Of a stretch of DNA of 64,000 nucleotides, positions 1,162 to 45,715 are shown in pieces. The notes under the pieces were generated by a model. It did no database searches. It saw only the letters and a list, made by a program, of their open reading frames with translations, and had not been told where the DNA came from. Position 1 is the first letter of the stretch; every line of letters starts with the position of its first letter. Location of the stretch: contig NZ_CP031946.1 in NCBI RefSeq assembly GCF_003443535.1, positions 124,001 to 188,000 of the forward strand. The letters are read 5' to 3'. A program made the translations under genes and the position numbers. The DNA comes from Ruegeria sp. AD91A. GTDB lineage: Bacteria; Pseudomonadota; Alphaproteobacteria; Rhodobacterales; Rhodobacteraceae.

Positions 1162-1218
1162 ATGGTGCTGCTGGAGAGAATTGAACTCTCGACCTCTCCC
1201 TTACCAAGGGAGTGCTCT
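1162..1218. repeat. attL: 57-bp direct repeat of the tRNA-Thr 3' part
   Basis: These 57 bp are identical to 45640-45696. They correspond to the 3'-terminal 56 nt of the minus-strand tRNA-Thr plus one base. The match stops abruptly after AGTGCTCT, where the right copy continues into the 5' part of the tRNA. This is the distal attachment-site copy left by tRNA-targeted integration, not a functional tRNA. Confidence 0.93.
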
Positions 1219-1312
1219 GTGTGACGCTAGAGGCACAAGGCAACCAGAACCCTTTGAAACCTTTTACATTATGTTGCGGTGAGTTATGTCTTGTTGTGAT
1301 GAGTGCGCGTAT

Positions 1313-1335
1313 CGGTGGTCGCCATGTGGTCGCCA
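1313..1335. repeat. Putative integrase arm-type site, left
   Basis: This 23-bp sequence contains GTGGTCGCCA twice in tandem (1316-1325 and 1327-1336, separated by one T). An identical 23-bp copy lies at 45572-45594 inside the right end. Its position, about 95 bp inside the core repeat and just upstream of the integrase start, fits a binding site for the integrase N-terminal domain. Confidence 0.6.
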
Positions 1336-1364
1336 GCGGTGGTTACCAACAAGGAAAACAGTTC

Positions 1365-2603
1365 ATGTCCCAAACGGCTCTTAAGATCGTCCAGATTGGC
1401 CCGAAACAAAGCGCGCAGCGCCAGTCCCTGACTGAAGCCAAGGTTCGTAACGCAAAGCCACATGCCCAACGATACGAAATCAATGACAAGGATGTTCCCG
1501 GCCTCGCACTGCGTATTGGGACCGACGCAAAGGTCTACATTCTGCGCTCACGCCTCGGGACCGGTCGCCAAGCCAAGCGCGTCCAGATCAAGATCGGTGA
1601 CACCCGGACGATCACGCTCAAACAAGCGCGCGACCTTGCTCGCTCTCACATCCTCGATTTGCGCAATGGAATCGACCCGCGCGTCCCGCAAACCGGTGCG
1701 ATCCTTACAGCCCGGCTTCTGGATCTTTACGAACAGGACCTGATTGCGCGCCAGATCGTCCGCACCACCGACATGATGCAATCGCTGCGCACGAACCTGT
1801 ACCCGCACCGGACTCGTCCCATTGGCGACCTGTCCCGCCTCGACCTGACCGCGATCATCGACGGCATCGAAAAATCCGGTCGTCCCGGCGCTGCCGACTA
1901 CTTCCGCAAGAACGCCACTGGTTTCTTGAACTTCGCTGCAGACAAGGGACACATCCCTGTCTCGCCTCTCGCAGGCTACCGCAGGCCGCGCCAGACGCGC
2001 GCACAGCGCCTCTCGGACGAACAATGGACCATGACTTCCCCCGAGCAGGTCAAGCGGTTCCTCAAAGCCCTGAACACCTCACCTGATCCGATCTACCAAG
2101 CCTTGATGCGCCTAACGCTTCTGACCGGCCAGCGCCGCAACGAAATCGCGCACATGCGCTGGGCAGAACTCGATAGAAAAACCAGCCTCTGGACTATCCC
2201 CGCCGACCGAACCAAGGCTGCCACCACCCACACGGTCCCTCTCGGTCCATTGTCGCGCGCGTTGCTCAAAGACCTCGCGAAACTGACAGGTGCGAAACCC
2301 GGCAAGACCGACGCGCTCATCTTCCCGAGCGCACGCGCGCCCAACACCGCAATCTCTGGCTGGTCCAAGCGGATCATCCCGGTCCGTAAGGCATACGGCG
2401 ACGACCGCCTGTCCATCCACGGTCTGCGCCGCACCTACCGCACCGGCCTTACCGAACTCGGGGTCGATTTCGACACTGCCGAACGGATGATCGGACACAA
2501 ACGCCCCGGTCTAGCGGGCACATACGACAAATCCACAATCCTCGAACGCAGGCTTGAGGCGCAGAGAATTTGGGAAGATTACATTGCCGCTCTATCGGGA
2601 TAG
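1365..2603 (+). CDS. P4-type tyrosine integrase of the island
   Basis: This 412-residue site-specific recombinase would catalyse integration into and excision from tRNA-Thr. The N-terminal part (about residues 20-110) has the arm-binding fold of P4-like integrases, with the segment VPGLALRIG and the IGDTRTITLKQAR stretch. A SAM-like core-binding domain follows. The catalytic domain shows the first Arg in TGQRRNEI, the HxxR box in HGLRRTYR, GH in MIGHKRPG, and the nucleophile Tyr in the segment LAGTYDKS. I chose ATG 1365 because AAGGA lies 10 bases upstream. The open frame extends back to 1212, but that would run through the attachment site and arm repeats. The gene reads inward from attL. Confidence 0.92.
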   Translation: MSQTALKIVQIGPKQSAQRQSLTEAKVRNAKPHAQRYEINDKDVPGLALRIGTDAKVYILRSRLGTGRQAKRVQIKIGDTRTITLKQARDLARSHILDLRNGIDPRVPQTGAILTARLLDLYEQDLIARQIVRTTDMMQSLRTNLYPHRTRPIGDLSRLDLTAIIDGIEKSGRPGAADYFRKNATGFLNFAADKGHIPVSPLAGYRRPRQTRAQRLSDEQWTMTSPEQVKRFLKALNTSPDPIYQALMRLTLLTGQRRNEIAHMRWAELDRKTSLWTIPADRTKAATTHTVPLGPLSRALLKDLAKLTGAKPGKTDALIFPSARAPNTAISGWSKRIIPVRKAYGDDRLSIHGLRRTYRTGLTELGVDFDTAERMIGHKRPGLAGTYDKSTILERRLEAQRIWEDYIAALSG

Positions 2604-38436: not shown

Positions 38437-38963
38437 ACGGTTTCATAGAGTGATGAAGATACAGTCTTTTCATCGATTGTGGTATTCGCAATCGCCCTAT
38501 TGGATATTTCCGAACTGCTTGGCGGCAAAAAACCTATGTCTGCTGTGGGCTGGCCAACCGCCATTGTTTGCTATTATGCCGATGGCGGCTTCGTCCGCAT
38601 AGCGGTCGCTCGAAATATTCAGGCGAACGTCGGCATTGAGCCCATAGGCGACATAGGTGATGAGCGTAGTATTTGTCGTTTGGGCGGAACAGGAAGTTTG
38701 CTGTATTCGCAAAAGATCGACGGGCCGGAAAATACACGAACTTTTATCAATAGGCCTGTCCGGAACCTGCCAGCTGCGGTCTGGCAAAAAAAGTGCCGAG
38801 TGATGCTGTCAACCGGCTTTTGGTTCCGGATGGGAAGATCTGCAAACCTGAAGGAAAAGACACTGGCCGCACCTCGCAAACCTGGCATGGCATCGGGACA
38901 ACATTTTTTTCAAAGTGGCCGCCGAAGGTTCCGCTCCTTGGGAATAATTATTAACTTGCGAAT
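38437..38963. other. 527-bp gap before the giant helicase gene
   Basis: A 162-codon frame on plus and a 96-codon frame on minus overlap here, but neither has a motif, a ribosome site or alphaproteobacterial codon use. The last 60 bases are AT-rich and would hold the helicase promoter. I see no recognisable gene or mobile element. Confidence 0.5.
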
Positions 38964-41900
38964 ATGAAAAACTTAATTTCCCGCGGCATATCGAAGGCCC
39001 TTGGCCGTGGCAGACCACAGCCACTCGAAAACTCAGAGGCTATTCCGGAGGAAATTAAGAGTACTCAAATGCCACGGGAACAATCCGAAATCTCGTCGCG
39101 CTGTCTGTCGATTGATTTGGAAGTTGATCCCAAGGAAGCCAAGTTGTTTGCCTTTGCAGCCGTGCCGGAAGGCGATGGAGAGGGGATTATTCATCGGAAA
39201 GGTGATCCGAAGGCCGCGCTTGAAAAGCTCGACTTGTTTTGCGCCGGTTTCGCACATGTCATTGGTCACAACATTCTGCGCCATGACCTGCCGCATCTCA
39301 TGGCGGTCTCGCCGCGCTTCGCAAAGCTCGCGGACGGACCGATTGACACGCTGTGGCTCAACCCCTTGGCGTTCCCGCGCAATCCCTACCATCATTTGGT
39401 CAAGCACTACCGCGATGGGCGGCTTCAAAGTGGTCACGTCAACGATCCCGAGCTCGACGCGCGTCTTGTGTTCGAGGTTCTTCACAACCAGATCGACGCC
39501 TTCGTCTCGCTGAACACGTTGTCGCCAGAAACGATGATCGCCTATCACTGGCTGTGCTGCCGAGGTCCCAGTAGCGTCGGATTTGATCGGTTGTTCAGCG
39601 ACGTGCGCGGGGCGCCCATCCCGACGGAAGCGGAGGCGCACGAGGCCATTCAGGCGTTGCTAAAAGACGTGGCCTGTGGCAGGCAAGTGGACGCTCTGCT
39701 CGAGCGGCTCTCGGACACTGGACTGGGTTGGCCGATGGCATATGCGCTCGCTTGGATTTCGGTCGCTGGTGGGGATTCTGTCATGCCGCCTTGGGTGCGG
39801 GCGCAGTTCCGTGATGCAGCGCGGCTTGTCAAAGACCTGAGAGATACAAATTGTCGTGATCCGAACTGTGCCTATTGCGCAGAGCACAATGAGCCCACCC
39901 GTGCACTCGAACGTTGGTTCGGCTTTCCAAGTTTCCGCCCGGAACCAGTCGACGAAAACGGACGCCCGCTTCAAGAAAAGATTGTGGCGACGGCCATGGA
40001 AGGCGACAATTTGTTGGGTATCCTGCCGACGGGCACTGGTAAATCCATCTGTTACCAGATCCCCGCGTTGTCTCGGTTCGACAAGACCGGGGCCTTGACC
40101 GTCGTAATATCGCCGCTTGTAGCACTGATGGCAGACCAGGTTCAGGGCTTGGTACGGGCCGGAATTTCCTCAGCGGTTACGATTAACGGGTTATTGTCTT
40201 TGCCCGAGCGTCAGGATGCGCTCGACAAGGTGCGGCTTGGGGATGCTGCGATCCTTTTGATTTCGCCCGAACAACTGCGCAGCACAACAGTTCGGTCTGT
40301 TCTGGCACAGCGCGAGGTGGGACTTTGGGTACTGGACGAGGCGCACTGCGTGTCTAAATGGGGACACGATTTCCGACCCGACTATCGCTACGTTTCGCGG
40401 TTTATCAAGGAAAGCTCAGGCGACGAACCGGCTCCGGTGCTTTGCTTGACCGCGACAGCGAAGCCGGACGTCGTGCAGGACATCCGCAGTCATTTCAAAG
40501 AGCGGTTGGGGTCCGAGCTGGTGTTGATCGACGGAGGCGCATCACGGTCGAACCTGAGTTTCCAGGTGCTGCCAACGCAGCGGGCAACCAAGATGGCCGA
40601 TATCCTCGACACGATCGAGGTCAAGCTTCCGCGTGAGGGCGTGTCGGGAGCGGTCGTCTATTGTGCGACCCAAAACGCTACCGAGCGCGTGGCGGAGTTC
40701 TTAAAACAACAGGGCATCGCCGCTGAACGGTATCACGCAGGCCTCAGCCCCGATGACAAACGTGAGATTCAGGAGGACTTCCGCGTCGGCAATCTCCGCG
40801 TGATCGCAGCCACCAACGCCTTTGGGATGGGGGTCGACAAGCCGGACATCCGTCTGGTGGTTCACGGGGACGTGCCTGGGTCGTTGGAAAACTACCTGCA
40901 AGAGGCGGGTCGCGCCGGGCGGGACCGCGAGCCCGCAAACTGCATCCTGTTGTTCAATACCGAAGACGTTGATCGTCAGTTCAGCCTCAGCGCGCGTTCT
41001 CGACTCGCGCGGCACGAAATCGGCGCGATCCTGAAGGCGCTTCGACGCCTTGATGCTCGGACTGGAAAAGGCGGCGAAATTGTCGCAACACCCGGTGAGA
41101 TCGTTCATGAGGAGAAAGAGCGAGACTTCCAGCGGGACAGCAACACCGACGATACGCGGGTGAAGACGGCCGTCGCCTGGTTGGAAGAAGCACACCTTCT
41201 GAACCGCGAAGAAAACCGGGTGCAGGTGTTTCCCGCCTCGCTCCGAATAAGGAGCATGCGGGAGGTCCGTGAAATCCTGGCATCCGCCGAGATTACCGAG
41301 CGGCGGCGCAAGGATCTGGCCGTAATCGTGCAGCATATCATCAACGCGCCGCAGGAAGAGGGCATCACCACGGACGAGCTCTGCGGCGTCAGCGGGCTTA
41401 CGATGTCGAGCCTACGTAAAGCCTTGGCGGATCTCGAGGCCCTGGGGATCGCAAAGGACGACACAAACATCACCATCTTCGTGCATGTAGGCGTCGAGAA
41501 TGCCTCGTCGAAGCGCTTCGAAGCGGCATCCCGGTTGGAAGCTGACCTGATTGCAGTCCTTAGGGAGCAAGCGCCAGACGCGGACATCAATGAGGCTGCG
41601 CCCTGCCATCTGGCCTCAGTGGCGCAGGCCTTGCGGGAGCGGGGACACGCCTCCGTACGGCCCGATATTGTCGAGGGTTTGCTCCGTGGGATGGCGCAGG
41701 ATGGCCGCGACATGGACGGCGGAAAAGGCAACATTGGCCTGCGCAAGGTGTCCAAAGGCAGTGTCATGGTGCGAATCCAAAGATCATGGGGGGTAATCGA
41801 ACAGACCGCTCAACTTCGCAGGCAGGCCGCAGAGCGTTTGGTTTCACACTTGATAAACAAGGCTCAGGCAGGTCTGCGTCGGAAAGACGTTCCTGTCGAG

Positions 41901-44180
41901 ACCACGCTTGGCGACCTTCTTGCAGCGATCAACAGCGATGCGCTGTTGCGAGCATCTGTCAATGATCCAGCAAAACTTATGGACCGGGCGCTTCTTTGGC
42001 TGCACGAACAGCAGGTGATGACTCTGGGCAAGGGATTGTCCGTGTTCCGATCCGCCATGACGCTGCACATCAATCCGAAAGGCGGCGCTTTTACCACCCA
42101 ACATTTCGCGCCGCTCGAAGACCATTACACCGAACAGACCGTCCAGACCCACGTGATGGCGGCTTACGCGAGCAAGGGCATCGACGATATCGATCAGGCC
42201 CAGCAGCTCGCGCATGACTATTTCGAAATGGAGCAGTCCGACTTCATGAAAGCTTGGATGCCGGGGAAGATTTCAGAGTTCCGACGGCAGGCAACGCCTC
42301 AGTCTTACGCCGAGATCGTCGACAATCTGGGGAATGCGACACAAGAGCAGATCGTGCGTGACGACCGCGAACAGACCAATGTCCTTGTGCTCGCAGGGCC
42401 GGGATCGGGCAAGACACGCGTGTTGGTCCATCGCATCGCCTATCTGGTTAGGATCAAGCGCGAAGATCCAAACGGTATACTGGTGCTCGCCTACAATCGT
42501 CACGCGGCCGCCGAGATTCGGGAACGCTTGCGTATGCTGATTGGCGAAGATGCTCGCTTCGTCACAGTCTTAACCATCCATGCCTTAGCCATGCGGTTGG
42601 TTGGCGCGAGTTTCGCCGGACGGGTAGCGGCCGACGAACCTGATTTCGAGACGCTTCTGATTGATGCGGCACGTCTCTTGCGTGGCGACGGGTTGGACAA
42701 AATCGAGGCCGAAGCCTTGCGAGAGACTTTGATCCAGGGGTTCCGCTGGATTCTCGTAGACGAATATCAGGACGTGGGACCAGAGGAATACGCCTTGATC
42801 GCGGCGGTGGCCGGTCGCAGTATCGACGACCCCGATCAACGGATTAGCCTGTTCGCGGTCGGCGATGACGACCAAAATATCTACGCGTTTGCCGGCGCAT
42901 CGGTGCGCCACATCCGGCAATTCGAACAGGATTATTCAGCCAAGCCGGTCTTTCTGACTGACAATTACCGCTCGTCGAAAAACGTCATCAGCGCAGCGAA
43001 CGCCGTGATCGAAGGATCTCGGGAACGTATGAAAACAGGGCATGGGATTACCGTCGACAAATCGCGGCAAAAGGACCCCGCAGGGAGTATCATGGAAAGC
43101 CTCGATCCGGTTGCGCAGGGACGGGTCCAAATCCTTGGCTGCCCGGCCGGAAATGACGCTCAGGCCCTTGCGGCTGTCAACGAGATGATCCGCCTGTCAA
43201 AACTGATCCCGGATTGGAGCTGGAAGGGCGCGGCAATCATTTCTCGTGATTGGCGCAAGCTTCTGTCGGTCCGTGATTTTGCCGAGGCGCATGGAATTCC
43301 AGTCGAAATGGCGAACGAAAACTTACCAAGTGTTTGGCGCACCCGTGAGATGCGGAGGTTCATCGACGGCCTACGCGAGAGGCACGCAGCCTTGGTCAGT
43401 TTGAGCGACCTTACCGAAACCCTGAACACGATACCCTCAAGCCGTTGGACTGACCGTATCGGCGAGGGACTTGGCCAACTTGCGCGTGAAGTTGATGGCA
43501 AAGCGCTCCCGAGCCCTGACGTGATGGAATGGTTTGCTGAATGGTCGAAAGACTCATGGGGCGAGCAGCGTGGCCTCAAGTTGTTGACGGCGCATCGCGC
43601 GAAAGGCCTCGAATTCGACGATGTCGTGATCCTGGATGGTGGTTGGGAACGGCCCTCGCGAAACGAAGATCAGGACGCGCCGAGGCGTTTGTTCTATGTC
43701 GCCATGACACGTACGCGGCGCAATTTGATCGTCATGAGTAACGACAATCACGAATACCTTCCCACCGAGTCGCCTTCCGTCGTCAAGCGGCACGTGGTGC
43801 CCGACTTGGCGACAGTCCCTGGCCCGCGCCGGTTCTTTCAATCGCCAGAAATGAAGATGGTCGACTTGTCGTTCGCAGGGCGCCAAGGTGATCGGCACAT
43901 TGTTCATGACGCGATCGCTGAAGCGCAGGTTGGCGCGCCAATCAAGCTCGCCAGTGTTGGAGATCGCTGGCAGATCGAGGATATTCAAGGGCGGGTCCTC
44001 GGGCGGATGGCAAAAGCATTTACGCCCCCGATTGGCACGAAATTTGTCACCGGCGAGATCGCGGCCATCATACACTGGCGTAAGGAAGATGCCGATGAGC
44101 GTTTTCATCACCTGATGAAACGCGCCAATTGGGAAGTCGTGGTGCCTGAACTGGTATTCGAAGAGGTCAAAAGCGGCTGA
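38964..44180 (+). CDS. Giant DEDD-exonuclease-like / RecQ / UvrD fusion helicase
   Basis: This 1738-residue protein joins three DNA-processing units. Residues about 45-170 resemble a DEDD exonuclease (SIDLEVD near 49, GHNILRHDLPHL near 100, DPELDARL near 162). A Cys cluster (CRDPNCAYC) near 297-305 looks zinc-binding. A RecQ helicase spans about 325-660 (GTGKSICYQIP near 357, DEAHCVSKWGHDFRPDY near 457, GMGVDKPDIR near 621, QEAGRAGRD near 648), followed by winged-helix-like segments. A UvrD/Rep helicase spans about 1130-1600 (GPGSGKTRVL near 1144, DEYQDVG near 1265, GDDDQNIYAFAGA near 1300, LTAHRAKGLEFDD near 1540, VAMTRTRRN near 1578). A short C-terminal beta-rich tail ends it. The ATG has only a weak ribosome site. 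Context suggests island-borne DNA repair or anti-phage activity. Confidence 0.9.
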   Translation: MKNLISRGISKALGRGRPQPLENSEAIPEEIKSTQMPREQSEISSRCLSIDLEVDPKEAKLFAFAAVPEGDGEGIIHRKGDPKAALEKLDLFCAGFAHVIGHNILRHDLPHLMAVSPRFAKLADGPIDTLWLNPLAFPRNPYHHLVKHYRDGRLQSGHVNDPELDARLVFEVLHNQIDAFVSLNTLSPETMIAYHWLCCRGPSSVGFDRLFSDVRGAPIPTEAEAHEAIQALLKDVACGRQVDALLERLSDTGLGWPMAYALAWISVAGGDSVMPPWVRAQFRDAARLVKDLRDTNCRDPNCAYCAEHNEPTRALERWFGFPSFRPEPVDENGRPLQEKIVATAMEGDNLLGILPTGTGKSICYQIPALSRFDKTGALTVVISPLVALMADQVQGLVRAGISSAVTINGLLSLPERQDALDKVRLGDAAILLISPEQLRSTTVRSVLAQREVGLWVLDEAHCVSKWGHDFRPDYRYVSRFIKESSGDEPAPVLCLTATAKPDVVQDIRSHFKERLGSELVLIDGGASRSNLSFQVLPTQRATKMADILDTIEVKLPREGVSGAVVYCATQNATERVAEFLKQQGIAAERYHAGLSPDDKREIQEDFRVGNLRVIAATNAFGMGVDKPDIRLVVHGDVPGSLENYLQEAGRAGRDREPANCILLFNTEDVDRQFSLSARSRLARHEIGAILKALRRLDARTGKGGEIVATPGEIVHEEKERDFQRDSNTDDTRVKTAVAWLEEAHLLNREENRVQVFPASLRIRSMREVREILASAEITERRRKDLAVIVQHIINAPQEEGITTDELCGVSGLTMSSLRKALADLEALGIAKDDTNITIFVHVGVENASSKRFEAASRLEADLIAVLREQAPDADINEAAPCHLASVAQALRERGHASVRPDIVEGLLRGMAQDGRDMDGGKGNIGLRKVSKGSVMVRIQRSWGVIEQTAQLRRQAAERLVSHLINKAQAGLRRKDVPVETTLGDLLAAINSDALLRASVNDPAKLMDRALLWLHEQQVMTLGKGLSVFRSAMTLHINPKGGAFTTQHFAPLEDHYTEQTVQTHVMAAYASKGIDDIDQAQQLAHDYFEMEQSDFMKAWMPGKISEFRRQATPQSYAEIVDNLGNATQEQIVRDDREQTNVLVLAGPGSGKTRVLVHRIAYLVRIKREDPNGILVLAYNRHAAAEIRERLRMLIGEDARFVTVLTIHALAMRLVGASFAGRVAADEPDFETLLIDAARLLRGDGLDKIEAEALRETLIQGFRWILVDEYQDVGPEEYALIAAVAGRSIDDPDQRISLFAVGDDDQNIYAFAGASVRHIRQFEQDYSAKPVFLTDNYRSSKNVISAANAVIEGSRERMKTGHGITVDKSRQKDPAGSIMESLDPVAQGRVQILGCPAGNDAQALAAVNEMIRLSKLIPDWSWKGAAIISRDWRKLLSVRDFAEAHGIPVEMANENLPSVWRTREMRRFIDGLRERHAALVSLSDLTETLNTIPSSRWTDRIGEGLGQLAREVDGKALPSPDVMEWFAEWSKDSWGEQRGLKLLTAHRAKGLEFDDVVILDGGWERPSRNEDQDAPRRLFYVAMTRTRRNLIVMSNDNHEYLPTESPSVVKRHVVPDLATVPGPRRFFQSPEMKMVDLSFAGRQGDRHIVHDAIAEAQVGAPIKLASVGDRWQIEDIQGRVLGRMAKAFTPPIGTKFVTGEIAAIIHWRKEDADERFHHLMKRANWEVVVPELVFEEVKSG

Positions 44181-44461
44181 AAGGGTCATCAGAAAGCTTC
44201 AGGGCGGCAAGTAAGTCGGTCAAGCCGTCGTTCGCTGCACTTGCAATATAGGACTGCTCGTGGTCGTAATTACACATTCCAACAAACTGATTTATCGGCA
44301 ACTTTGTCCCGCATCTCGTACATAGGGACCGGTTTGACAAGCGTCAGTTTCCGCCGGAAGCGGTGCTTCGAGATCGAAACCACAGTTGGGCACCCGTCAA
44401 TGGCCGCTTGGCGTTGGAGACCTCCCTACCGCGATCAGTTCAGGGAATGCGTCGATACGTG

Positions 44462-45274
44462 CTAAGCCGGCTCAATCTCGGCCAACTTCTCAATCAGCTT
44501 ACGGTTCAACTCATCCCCATGCGCCCCGAAATGAATTTCTCGATGAACTGTCGGGCAGATTGCTGCCACGTAACGGGGATCGTCAGGCCCATCATCCGAT
44601 AGCCGCCGGGTATGATGCACCTCAAGATAAGGTCGTCCCGATGGCGTTTGGAATGGCGCTGGTTCTCCGGTTAGTTCACATCTCCCGTTGGCTCGTGCCA
44701 AGACGTAGTCACGAACCGTGGCTGACCTCTTTCGATAAGCGACTCGCGCCTCCCGCCAGTTCTTAGCCCGCTGAGGCTTAGCTGCTTTCTGTGCCGCACT
44801 ACGAAGCCTTTCAATCGGTAATTCTGCCTCGGCTTCATCAGGCTCATCGCGAACGGTCTGCACGTCCGCCGAAGCTCTGACGAGATGAAAGCGGATGCAT
44901 TCACGGTTGTTTCCGTCAGTGTCTAGACCTTTGAATGTGTCCCACGATTGGCACGCAAATCGCCCAATGAAACGAACAGGAAGCCCTTTCCCTAGGGCCT
45001 CGAATAGTAGTAGGCCCCTTCCGTTGATGTCATGGTCTCGGATGTGGGCGTTCCCAGCCTTGAACTGCATATCACCCTTTTGACCCTCACCGGTATAGAG
45101 GAAGACGCCCTCGTGCTGCCAACCATCTTCATAGCCGTGCTGTTCGCCACTCTTGCCGGTGAAGATGAATACAAATTGGCTGTCCTTTGGCGTCGAGATG
45201 CCGCCCTGTCGCTGCCCGCCGAAGACGTCGTGAATGTCTTTAGCGCGCGAGTATTCCACTCCTTCAATAAACAT
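44462..45274 (-). CDS. McrA-like HNH endonuclease with N-terminal SRA-like domain
   Basis: This 270-residue protein has an N-terminal domain with FGGQRQGGISTP, HGYEDGWQHEGVFLYTGEGQ and a GNAHIRDH block. These follow the SRA-like domain of ScoMcrA-type nucleases that read modified cytosine. The C-terminal HNH domain shows CELTGEPAPF (one Cys), LEVHHTRRLSDDG, and ICPTVHREIHFG; the second Cys of the usual CxxC pairs is replaced by T or V, so structural zinc may be absent. ATG 45274 follows AGGTGGGG. It converges on the giant helicase gene. A modification-dependent (type IV) restriction enzyme is the best guess. Confidence 0.75.
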   Translation of the reverse strand: MFIEGVEYSRAKDIHDVFGGQRQGGISTPKDSQFVFIFTGKSGEQHGYEDGWQHEGVFLYTGEGQKGDMQFKAGNAHIRDHDINGRGLLLFEALGKGLPVRFIGRFACQSWDTFKGLDTDGNNRECIRFHLVRASADVQTVRDEPDEAEAELPIERLRSAAQKAAKPQRAKNWREARVAYRKRSATVRDYVLARANGRCELTGEPAPFQTPSGRPYLEVHHTRRLSDDGPDDPRYVAAICPTVHREIHFGAHGDELNRKLIEKLAEIEPA

Positions 45275-45303
45275 GTCGCCCCCCACCTGGATCACTATCC
45301 GGT

Positions 45304-45639: not shown

Positions 45640-45715
<76 letters not shown>

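Follow-up and report, generated by a model that had tools for sequence, protein, structure and literature searches.

A DEDD exonuclease-like, RecQ and UvrD fusion protein on a tRNA-Thr island of Ruegeria: an accessory gene with a probable role in defense

What use does a bacterium have for a single chain that sets two helicase motors of different superfamilies behind a nuclease-like domain? The question is raised by a gene in the 64,000-nucleotide stretch of Ruegeria sp. AD91A that we analyzed (contig NZ_CP031946.1, positions 124,001 to 188,000; this whole stretch is referred to below as the window, and coordinates are counted from its first letter). Our best answer, to which we assign a probability of roughly 0.55, is that the gene encodes a horizontally spreading, single-gene helicase-nuclease that acts mainly by destroying or blocking foreign DNA (that of phages and perhaps of plasmids), and that it probably serves in anti-phage or anti-element defense. 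The gene and its parts are as follows (aa, amino acid positions in the product; SF1 and SF2, helicase superfamilies 1 and 2).

38964..44180, + strand: fusion gene, 1738 aa, comprising a DEDD exonuclease-like domain, a four-Cys helical part, a RecQ core, a linker, a UvrD-like helicase and a C-terminal domain
39093..39530, + strand: DEDD exonuclease-like domain, about aa 44-189, with D51, E53, H102-N103, D108 and N160-x-P162-x-x-D165 (from alignments, the profile match to 8zef, hhalign and the structure model)
39531..39890, + strand: helical part with Cys 238, 297, 302 and 305, about aa 190-309 (alignment, model)
39903..40979, + strand: RecQ-type SF2 helicase core, aa 314-672, with Walker A at 355-361, DEAH at 458-461 and motif VI at 646-653
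40980..42299, + strand: linker, aa 673-1112, helices and strands in the model (model, Pfam scan, Cys count)
42315..43769, + strand: UvrD-like SF1 helicase, about aa 1118-1602, with Walker A at 1145-1151, DEYQD at 1266-1270 and GDDDQNIY at 1300-1307
43815..44177, + strand: strand-rich C-terminal domain, about aa 1618-1738 (model)

The reading frame is uninterrupted from the ATG at 38964 to the stop codon ending at 44180. Pfam scans of the product placed DEAD at aa 334-506, Helicase_C at 561-654, UvrD-helicase from 1124 and UvrD_C up to about 1592; no match was listed before aa 334 (E up to 10), none to an RQC or HRDC domain, and none within the C-terminal domain (E up to 1). The first motor is of the RecQ type (subfamily model TIGR00614, 300.5 bits against a cut-off of 219.8) and is not a canonical RecQ: the equivalog TIGR01389 gave 351.6 against 640.2 bits, covering model positions 5-336 of 591, and the four-Cys zinc subdomain expected after the core was not found, the sole Cys between residues 655 and 806 being Cys 660. 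The second motor carries both the N- and the C-terminal UvrD domains of the UvrD/Rep/PcrA group (SF1A), and it scored below the cut-offs of the housekeeping equivalogs (161-170 bits against 911-1144 for uvrD/pcrA, and 123.5 against 951 for rep). Conservation was assessed on 83 of 101 loci, namely those with an open reading frame (ORF) of at least 1550 aa, the DDDQNIY motif and no X; these full-length homologues span 27-87% identity and several phyla. Without exception (83/83), both motors keep their Walker A lysines and Walker B acids in this set. The RecQ and UvrD families both translocate 3'-5', and for this reason the 'opposite' roles that the original prediction had offered for the two motors are unlikely.

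Chance read-through of adjoining genes can be rejected as the origin of so long a frame, given that full-length homologues exist and that the distances of their domains agree. When the distance matrices of the four main parts (nuclease, RecQ, linker and UvrD) are compared, their correlations are 0.959-0.984 (the largest value in 200 permutations was 0.27), and those of the C-terminal domain with the others are 0.82-0.84. Relatives from Bacteroidota, Clostridia and Cyanobacteria have the same domain order at 27-31% identity. Because the main domains co-diverge, the exonuclease-RecQ-UvrD architecture is one old fusion. Named Ruegeria proteins are 93-95% identical to the product. Homologues in plasmid records are annotated only as 'RecQ family ATP-dependent DNA helicase' or 'ATP-dependent DNA helicase RecQ', and full-text literature searches (judged by title and the start of the abstract, with subscription papers mostly outside their scope) returned no description of an exonuclease-RecQ-UvrD protein; the main text of DefensePredictor (supplements lying outside this scope) contains none of the terms RecQ, UvrD, exonuclease or helicase.

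Is the N-terminal domain a nuclease? A profile built from 15 N-terminal regions of the family matched, as its best-scoring solved relative in the PDB, the 3'-5' exonuclease DinG 8zef (E 2.9e-6), and hhalign against 12 PF00929 (RNase_T) proteins gave a probability of 92.4 (E 5e-7), with HN..D, the IDTL stretch and the last Asp all in register; the domain is therefore homologous to known DEDD members. All four acids of the DEDD group are present and are kept almost without exception (D51 and D108 in 83/83, E53 and D165 in 82/83). The histidine that defines the DEDDh subgroup, five residues before the last Asp, is absent: its position is held by Asn160 in 77/83 homologues, and by Ser (four), Lys (one) or Ala (one) in the others. 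We consequently describe the domain as DEDD-like, not as a plain DEDDh member, and its exonuclease activity as putative. Structure searches bear mainly on the motors: for the 1069-residue model, the 50 matches listed are all to helicase chains, of RecQ or other kinds (the DEDD domain was not folded alone), and among the matches listed for both whole models the hits named are helicases.

These same residues prompt the reading that the domain senses 3' ends without cutting them, any defense then coming from two motors that unwind or block replication intermediates. Besides the replacement of the catalytic histidine, this reading can draw on the low predicted local distance difference test score (pLDDT <50) at model positions 105-115 (aa 148-158), which adjoin motif III, and on natural changes at nuclease residues in two loci (Gly where E53 is expected in L069, and Cys where D165 is expected in L031). 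We consider it quite unlikely, because the loss of catalysis would be expected to relax the four metal-binding acids, which are instead retained in 82-83 of 83 homologues down to 27% identity, and because H143 and K147, both invariant in the 83, might take over the role of the histidine. Behind the domain, Cys 238, 297, 302 and 305 are each kept in 82/83 homologues and form a possible metal or Fe-S site; the cyanobacterial relative lacks the group. Taken together, the open frame, the Pfam and TIGR00614 matches, the 8zef profile match and the full-length homologues bear out what had been proposed from the sequence, namely a 1738-residue fusion of DEDD-like, RecQ and UvrD parts in which both motors retain Walker A and B behind the nuclease-like domain and a Cys cluster.

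We then asked whether this is a housekeeping gene. Its N-terminal domain was present in 12/54 genomes of the host genus, 51/296 of the family, 10/289 of the class and 17/397 of the phylum (counts include the genome studied here, and some matches are remnants), a patchy occurrence by which a core housekeeping gene is rejected for these groups; the gene is accessory in all four. Among 72,556 plasmid records, 21 matched at E<=1e-100, with coverage of >80% of the query in 19, whereas no full-length match was found in 50,697 phage records (E<=1e-60), and phage cargo was rejected on that ground. In IMG/VR there were 15 matching loci, perhaps proviral or mobile pieces, 11 of which matched along the greater part of the query. 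Twelve short or cut matches in the family were inspected: frame changes occur in G109, G118 and one place in G302, remnants in G302, G072, G079 and G161, the match in G162 ends at aa 1466, three loci (L292, L293 and L296) reach contig ends and a fourth (L295) ends near one. The frame-disrupted or remnant copies (L286-L291 and L297) are as expected from the turnover of an accessory gene. In G015, a remnant of a second family copy (71% identical; L189, 13310-13573) lies beside the intact gene.

An accessory gene of this layout need not defend. It could be a repair or recombination enzyme carried on islands and plasmids, with an exonuclease followed by RecQ as in WRN, that processes forks and 3' ends on behalf of the host or the element. 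We regard that as doubtful. All 37 genus genomes searched have a separate RecQ-like ORF of 685-701 aa (and the fusion is for that reason not their only RecQ); the only regulatory box looked for, an exact GTTC-N7-GTTC, does not occur near the gene (four in the window, 2.2 expected), so that SOS control is not supported; and the remnant and frame-disrupted copies, together with the defense-rich surroundings described below, fit a defense gene better.

How does the gene move? It sits at the tRNA end of an integrative island of 44.5 kb (window 1162-45696), together with a restriction-like gene, and the following features delimit the island and the transferred segment.

1162..1218, no strand: left direct repeat of 57 bp (attL), an exact copy of 45640-45696 (repeat search)
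1212..2603, + strand: tyrosine integrase of the island (PF00589, 78.8 bits; Arm-DNA-bind_3; scanned from 1293)
38630..44314, + strand: maximum span of the DNA that six further same-genus copies share with this one, 91.8-93.5% identical (DNA comparison)
44462..45295, - strand: SRA-HNH type IV restriction-like gene, 277 aa (Pfam, PADLOC)
45640..45696, no strand: right direct repeat of 57 bp (attR), overlapping tRNA-Thr (repeat search)
45641..45715, - strand: tRNA-Thr (GGT), insertion site of the island (tRNA scan)

The mechanical start of the integrase ORF overlaps attL, and the true start may be further in. The block shared with the other copies (about 5.6 kb) consists of the gene, about 300 bp upstream and 50-130 bp downstream, and those copies sit at other places. 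Core blocks of G732, G036 and G729 are 78-82% identical to the window in DNA; in G732 and G036, the fusion DNA is 92% identical to that of the window and the murA-hisD DNA 79%. Because the fusion DNA (91.8-93.5%) is so much closer than the core, and because only about 5.6 kb is shared, these comparisons suggest that the gene was recently transferred horizontally on its own.

The seven genus copies that are about 95% identical in protein sequence (the one in the window included) lie near tRNA genes for Thr, Phe (two), Gln (two), Met and Trp, six of the seven within <3 kb and the Trp case 6.7 kb away. In the window, tRNA-Phe (55062) and tRNA-Gln (55633) are free of the fusion, and the same tRNA genes carry it in other genomes; the tRNA-Thr, -Phe and -Gln genes, within about 10 kb, thus each hold it in different genomes (the window, G732/G036 and G005/G729, respectively). 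Four genomes (L178, L184, L217 and L228) have copies of 62-95% identity at 287-329 bp from tRNA-Phe, a recurrent insertion hotspot. Targeting of tRNA genes does not extend to the family as a whole and was rejected at that level, with a tRNA in 14/63 fusion windows against 9/30 controls; the link is limited to the 95% clade.

The tRNA-edge position of that clade, along with the plasmid records, is what recommends the reading that the protein is a selfish helper of mobile elements, one that helps islands and plasmids to integrate or persist, or that lets one element exclude another. We judge it very improbable: the clade copies share only about 5.6 kb and the gene has no constant neighbor family, a tRNA lies within <3 kb in 3/56 of the other fusion windows against 3/30 controls, and the exclusion of rival elements would itself be a form of defense.

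As the original prediction had it, the gene lies on a mobile island (exact repeats at tRNA-Thr plus integrase) and beside a restriction-like gene, the SRA-HNH gene (PADLOC mREase_IV, 1.2e-14; Pfam SAD_SRA and HNH matches below their cut-offs). The SRA-HNH protein lacks the first 112 residues of its L249 relative, with a tRNA about 350 bp upstream, and may be truncated. It is not a constant partner, its family lying beside the fusion in 3/63 loci; the commonest neighbor family, a LysR regulator, reaches 6/63, and an obligate operon partner is rejected. In 5/63 loci (L223, L230, L231, L233 and L235) the fusion adjoins a protein (mREase_IV) of about 1000 aa that combines PLD-like, ResIII helicase and DUF3427 domains.

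We evaluated the surroundings for defense genes by scanning with PADLOC (E<=1e-20) the two nearest ORFs on each side at 62 loci (232 ORFs) and 232 control ORFs (up to four per side) from 30 windows taken about 150-700 kb away in 16 of those genomes. Matches came to 66 and 78 models for the test ORFs and to 37 and 5 for the controls (models, not proteins). Counted as proteins, defense types make up about 18-21/232 in the test set and 7/232 in the controls (Fisher p 0.04-0.01), a tally that is rough on both sides, having been read by eye from 25 models in each of the tables of 66, 78 and 37; seven PbeA matches in the test set were judged unspecific and not counted, and a PbeC match is included in the control seven. 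The test-set matches include mREase_IV (five), PD-Lambda-4_A, MTase_I, MTase_II, MTase_III, AbiD, DrmD (two), LmuA, LmuC, AbiP2, PDC-M09 and PDC-S01, among others. In other classes and phyla (22 loci and 108 of 165 neighbor ORFs, leaving out 42 from viral contigs and the last 15; no control set), matches were to PDC-M21 (two), SoFic (two), type I subunits/Specificity_I, PDC-M04 and IetA. Six plasmid regions were inspected, of which four have defense-type genes: type I-D CRISPR (Thiothrix), type I restriction (Allochromatium), HipA (Rhizobium) and VapC (Sulfitobacter). The Thiothrix copy (L038) precedes the type I-D CRISPR operon by about 4 kb and has a small 3'-5' exonuclease gene close by, and on the Allochromatium plasmid (L039) a small exonuclease gene lies about 8.5 kb from the fusion. 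The survey thus finds homologues that, within the groups examined, are not mainly core chromosomal genes (12/54 even in the genus) but accessory, horizontally moving and often adjacent to defense genes.

Several observations weigh against a defense role, beyond the roughness of the tally. Since the controls represent the chromosome bulk of 16 genomes, enrichment on islands and enrichment near defense genes are not separated; many neighbors are plain metabolic genes, and the cargo of the island itself, read by eye, is mainly for transport and sugar catabolism; in the Bacteroides and Calothrix plasmid regions no defense gene was recognized by name; no feature for telling self from non-self was seen in the analysis of the fusion; and, because Asn160 replaces the DEDDh histidine, the nuclease could be weak or dead.

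We nevertheless prefer the reading of a single-gene defense against foreign DNA, and propose how a putative nuclease activity, its polarity and a trigger might combine. The protein would load on 3' tails of single-stranded DNA (ssDNA), on forks or on ends, for example those that arise as phages replicate and recombine; its two motors, the RecQ core and the UvrD-like helicase, would unwind the duplex and strip bound proteins; and the DEDD domain would trim the resulting 3' ends, which would make replication and end-joining fail. In healthy cells the enzyme would be kept quiet by its dependence on a trigger, for instance phage ssDNA-binding protein (SSB) or an excess of ssDNA. With three activities that share one polarity, a single chain would be well fitted to such a course, from entry at 3' tails or forks through unwinding and protein removal to the trimming of 3' ends. 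A bolder version, which we advance only tentatively, is a one-chain analogue of RecBCD or AdnAB, in which motors of two superfamilies, a DEDD-type nuclease and a four-Cys (perhaps Fe-S) module are licensed by 3' ends or phage ssDNA complexes and act as a stand-alone immune machine in several phyla.

How does the fusion compare with known systems? In PADLOC its RecQ core gives strong but partial matches, over aa 308-697 only, to defense proteins with a RecQ core, among them DpdF (2.2e-114) and PsyrT (5.5e-94), and with an NCBIfam score of 199.3 bits against a cut-off of 550 it is not a DpdF. WRN, a human RecQ helicase with a 3'-5' exonuclease, lacks a UvrD part and belongs to eukaryotic repair; its exonuclease is DEDDy, of the RNase D type, and it has RQC and HRDC domains. 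The fusion would be a repair-like enzyme of WRN-like layout set in a mobile context. ExoDinG (S. aureus DinG, 8zef), which has been shown to be a 3'-5' exonuclease (PMC12345164), likewise places an N-terminal DEDD-type exonuclease before an SF2 helicase. It differs in that its helicase is XPD/DinG-like and 5'-3', its exonuclease is DEDDh, and it is without RecQ or UvrD.

In Gabija (GajA plus GajB), a UvrD-like helicase acts with a nuclease against phage (PMC12904381). GajB is among the fold matches listed for our models (8sm3 and 8iud), but Gabija is a two-gene system, whereas the fusion is one chain with no constant partner. The nuclease of Gabija is of the OLD type. The loci we examined do not form such a pair, no neighbor family being constant and the commonest occurring in 6/63 (GajA was not searched for by name). 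Nhi is a single-gene nuclease-helicase defense linked to phage SSB (PMC12904381, PMC10732053); by description, it and Gabija may serve as further working models for the fusion.

Bacterial immunity that targets DNA makes repeated use of helicase and nuclease modules, and its best-studied single-gene case, Hna, has one motor type. Hna is an 845-aa protein with an SF2 DinG-like helicase and a C-terminal PD-(D/E)XK nuclease, a 3'-5' ssDNA exonuclease encoded by a single gene, restrained by ATP and released or stimulated by phage SSB, that acts through abortive infection (PMC13381803). Like the fusion, it is a horizontally spread single gene that joins a helicase motor and a nuclease in one chain; unlike it, Hna has a DinG-like motor only, another nuclease fold and order, and half the length, without RecQ or UvrD, so that the 1738-aa fusion with its N-terminal DEDD domain and two motors falls outside the Hna family. 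The fusion ties SF2 and SF1 motors to a nuclease-like domain and keeps all three sets of active-site residues across large distances; if it defends, it is a frequent accessory system (51/296 family genomes) and a tractable case of two motors on one DNA. Hna, unrelated in architecture, would be the nearest working model for how such a protein may act.
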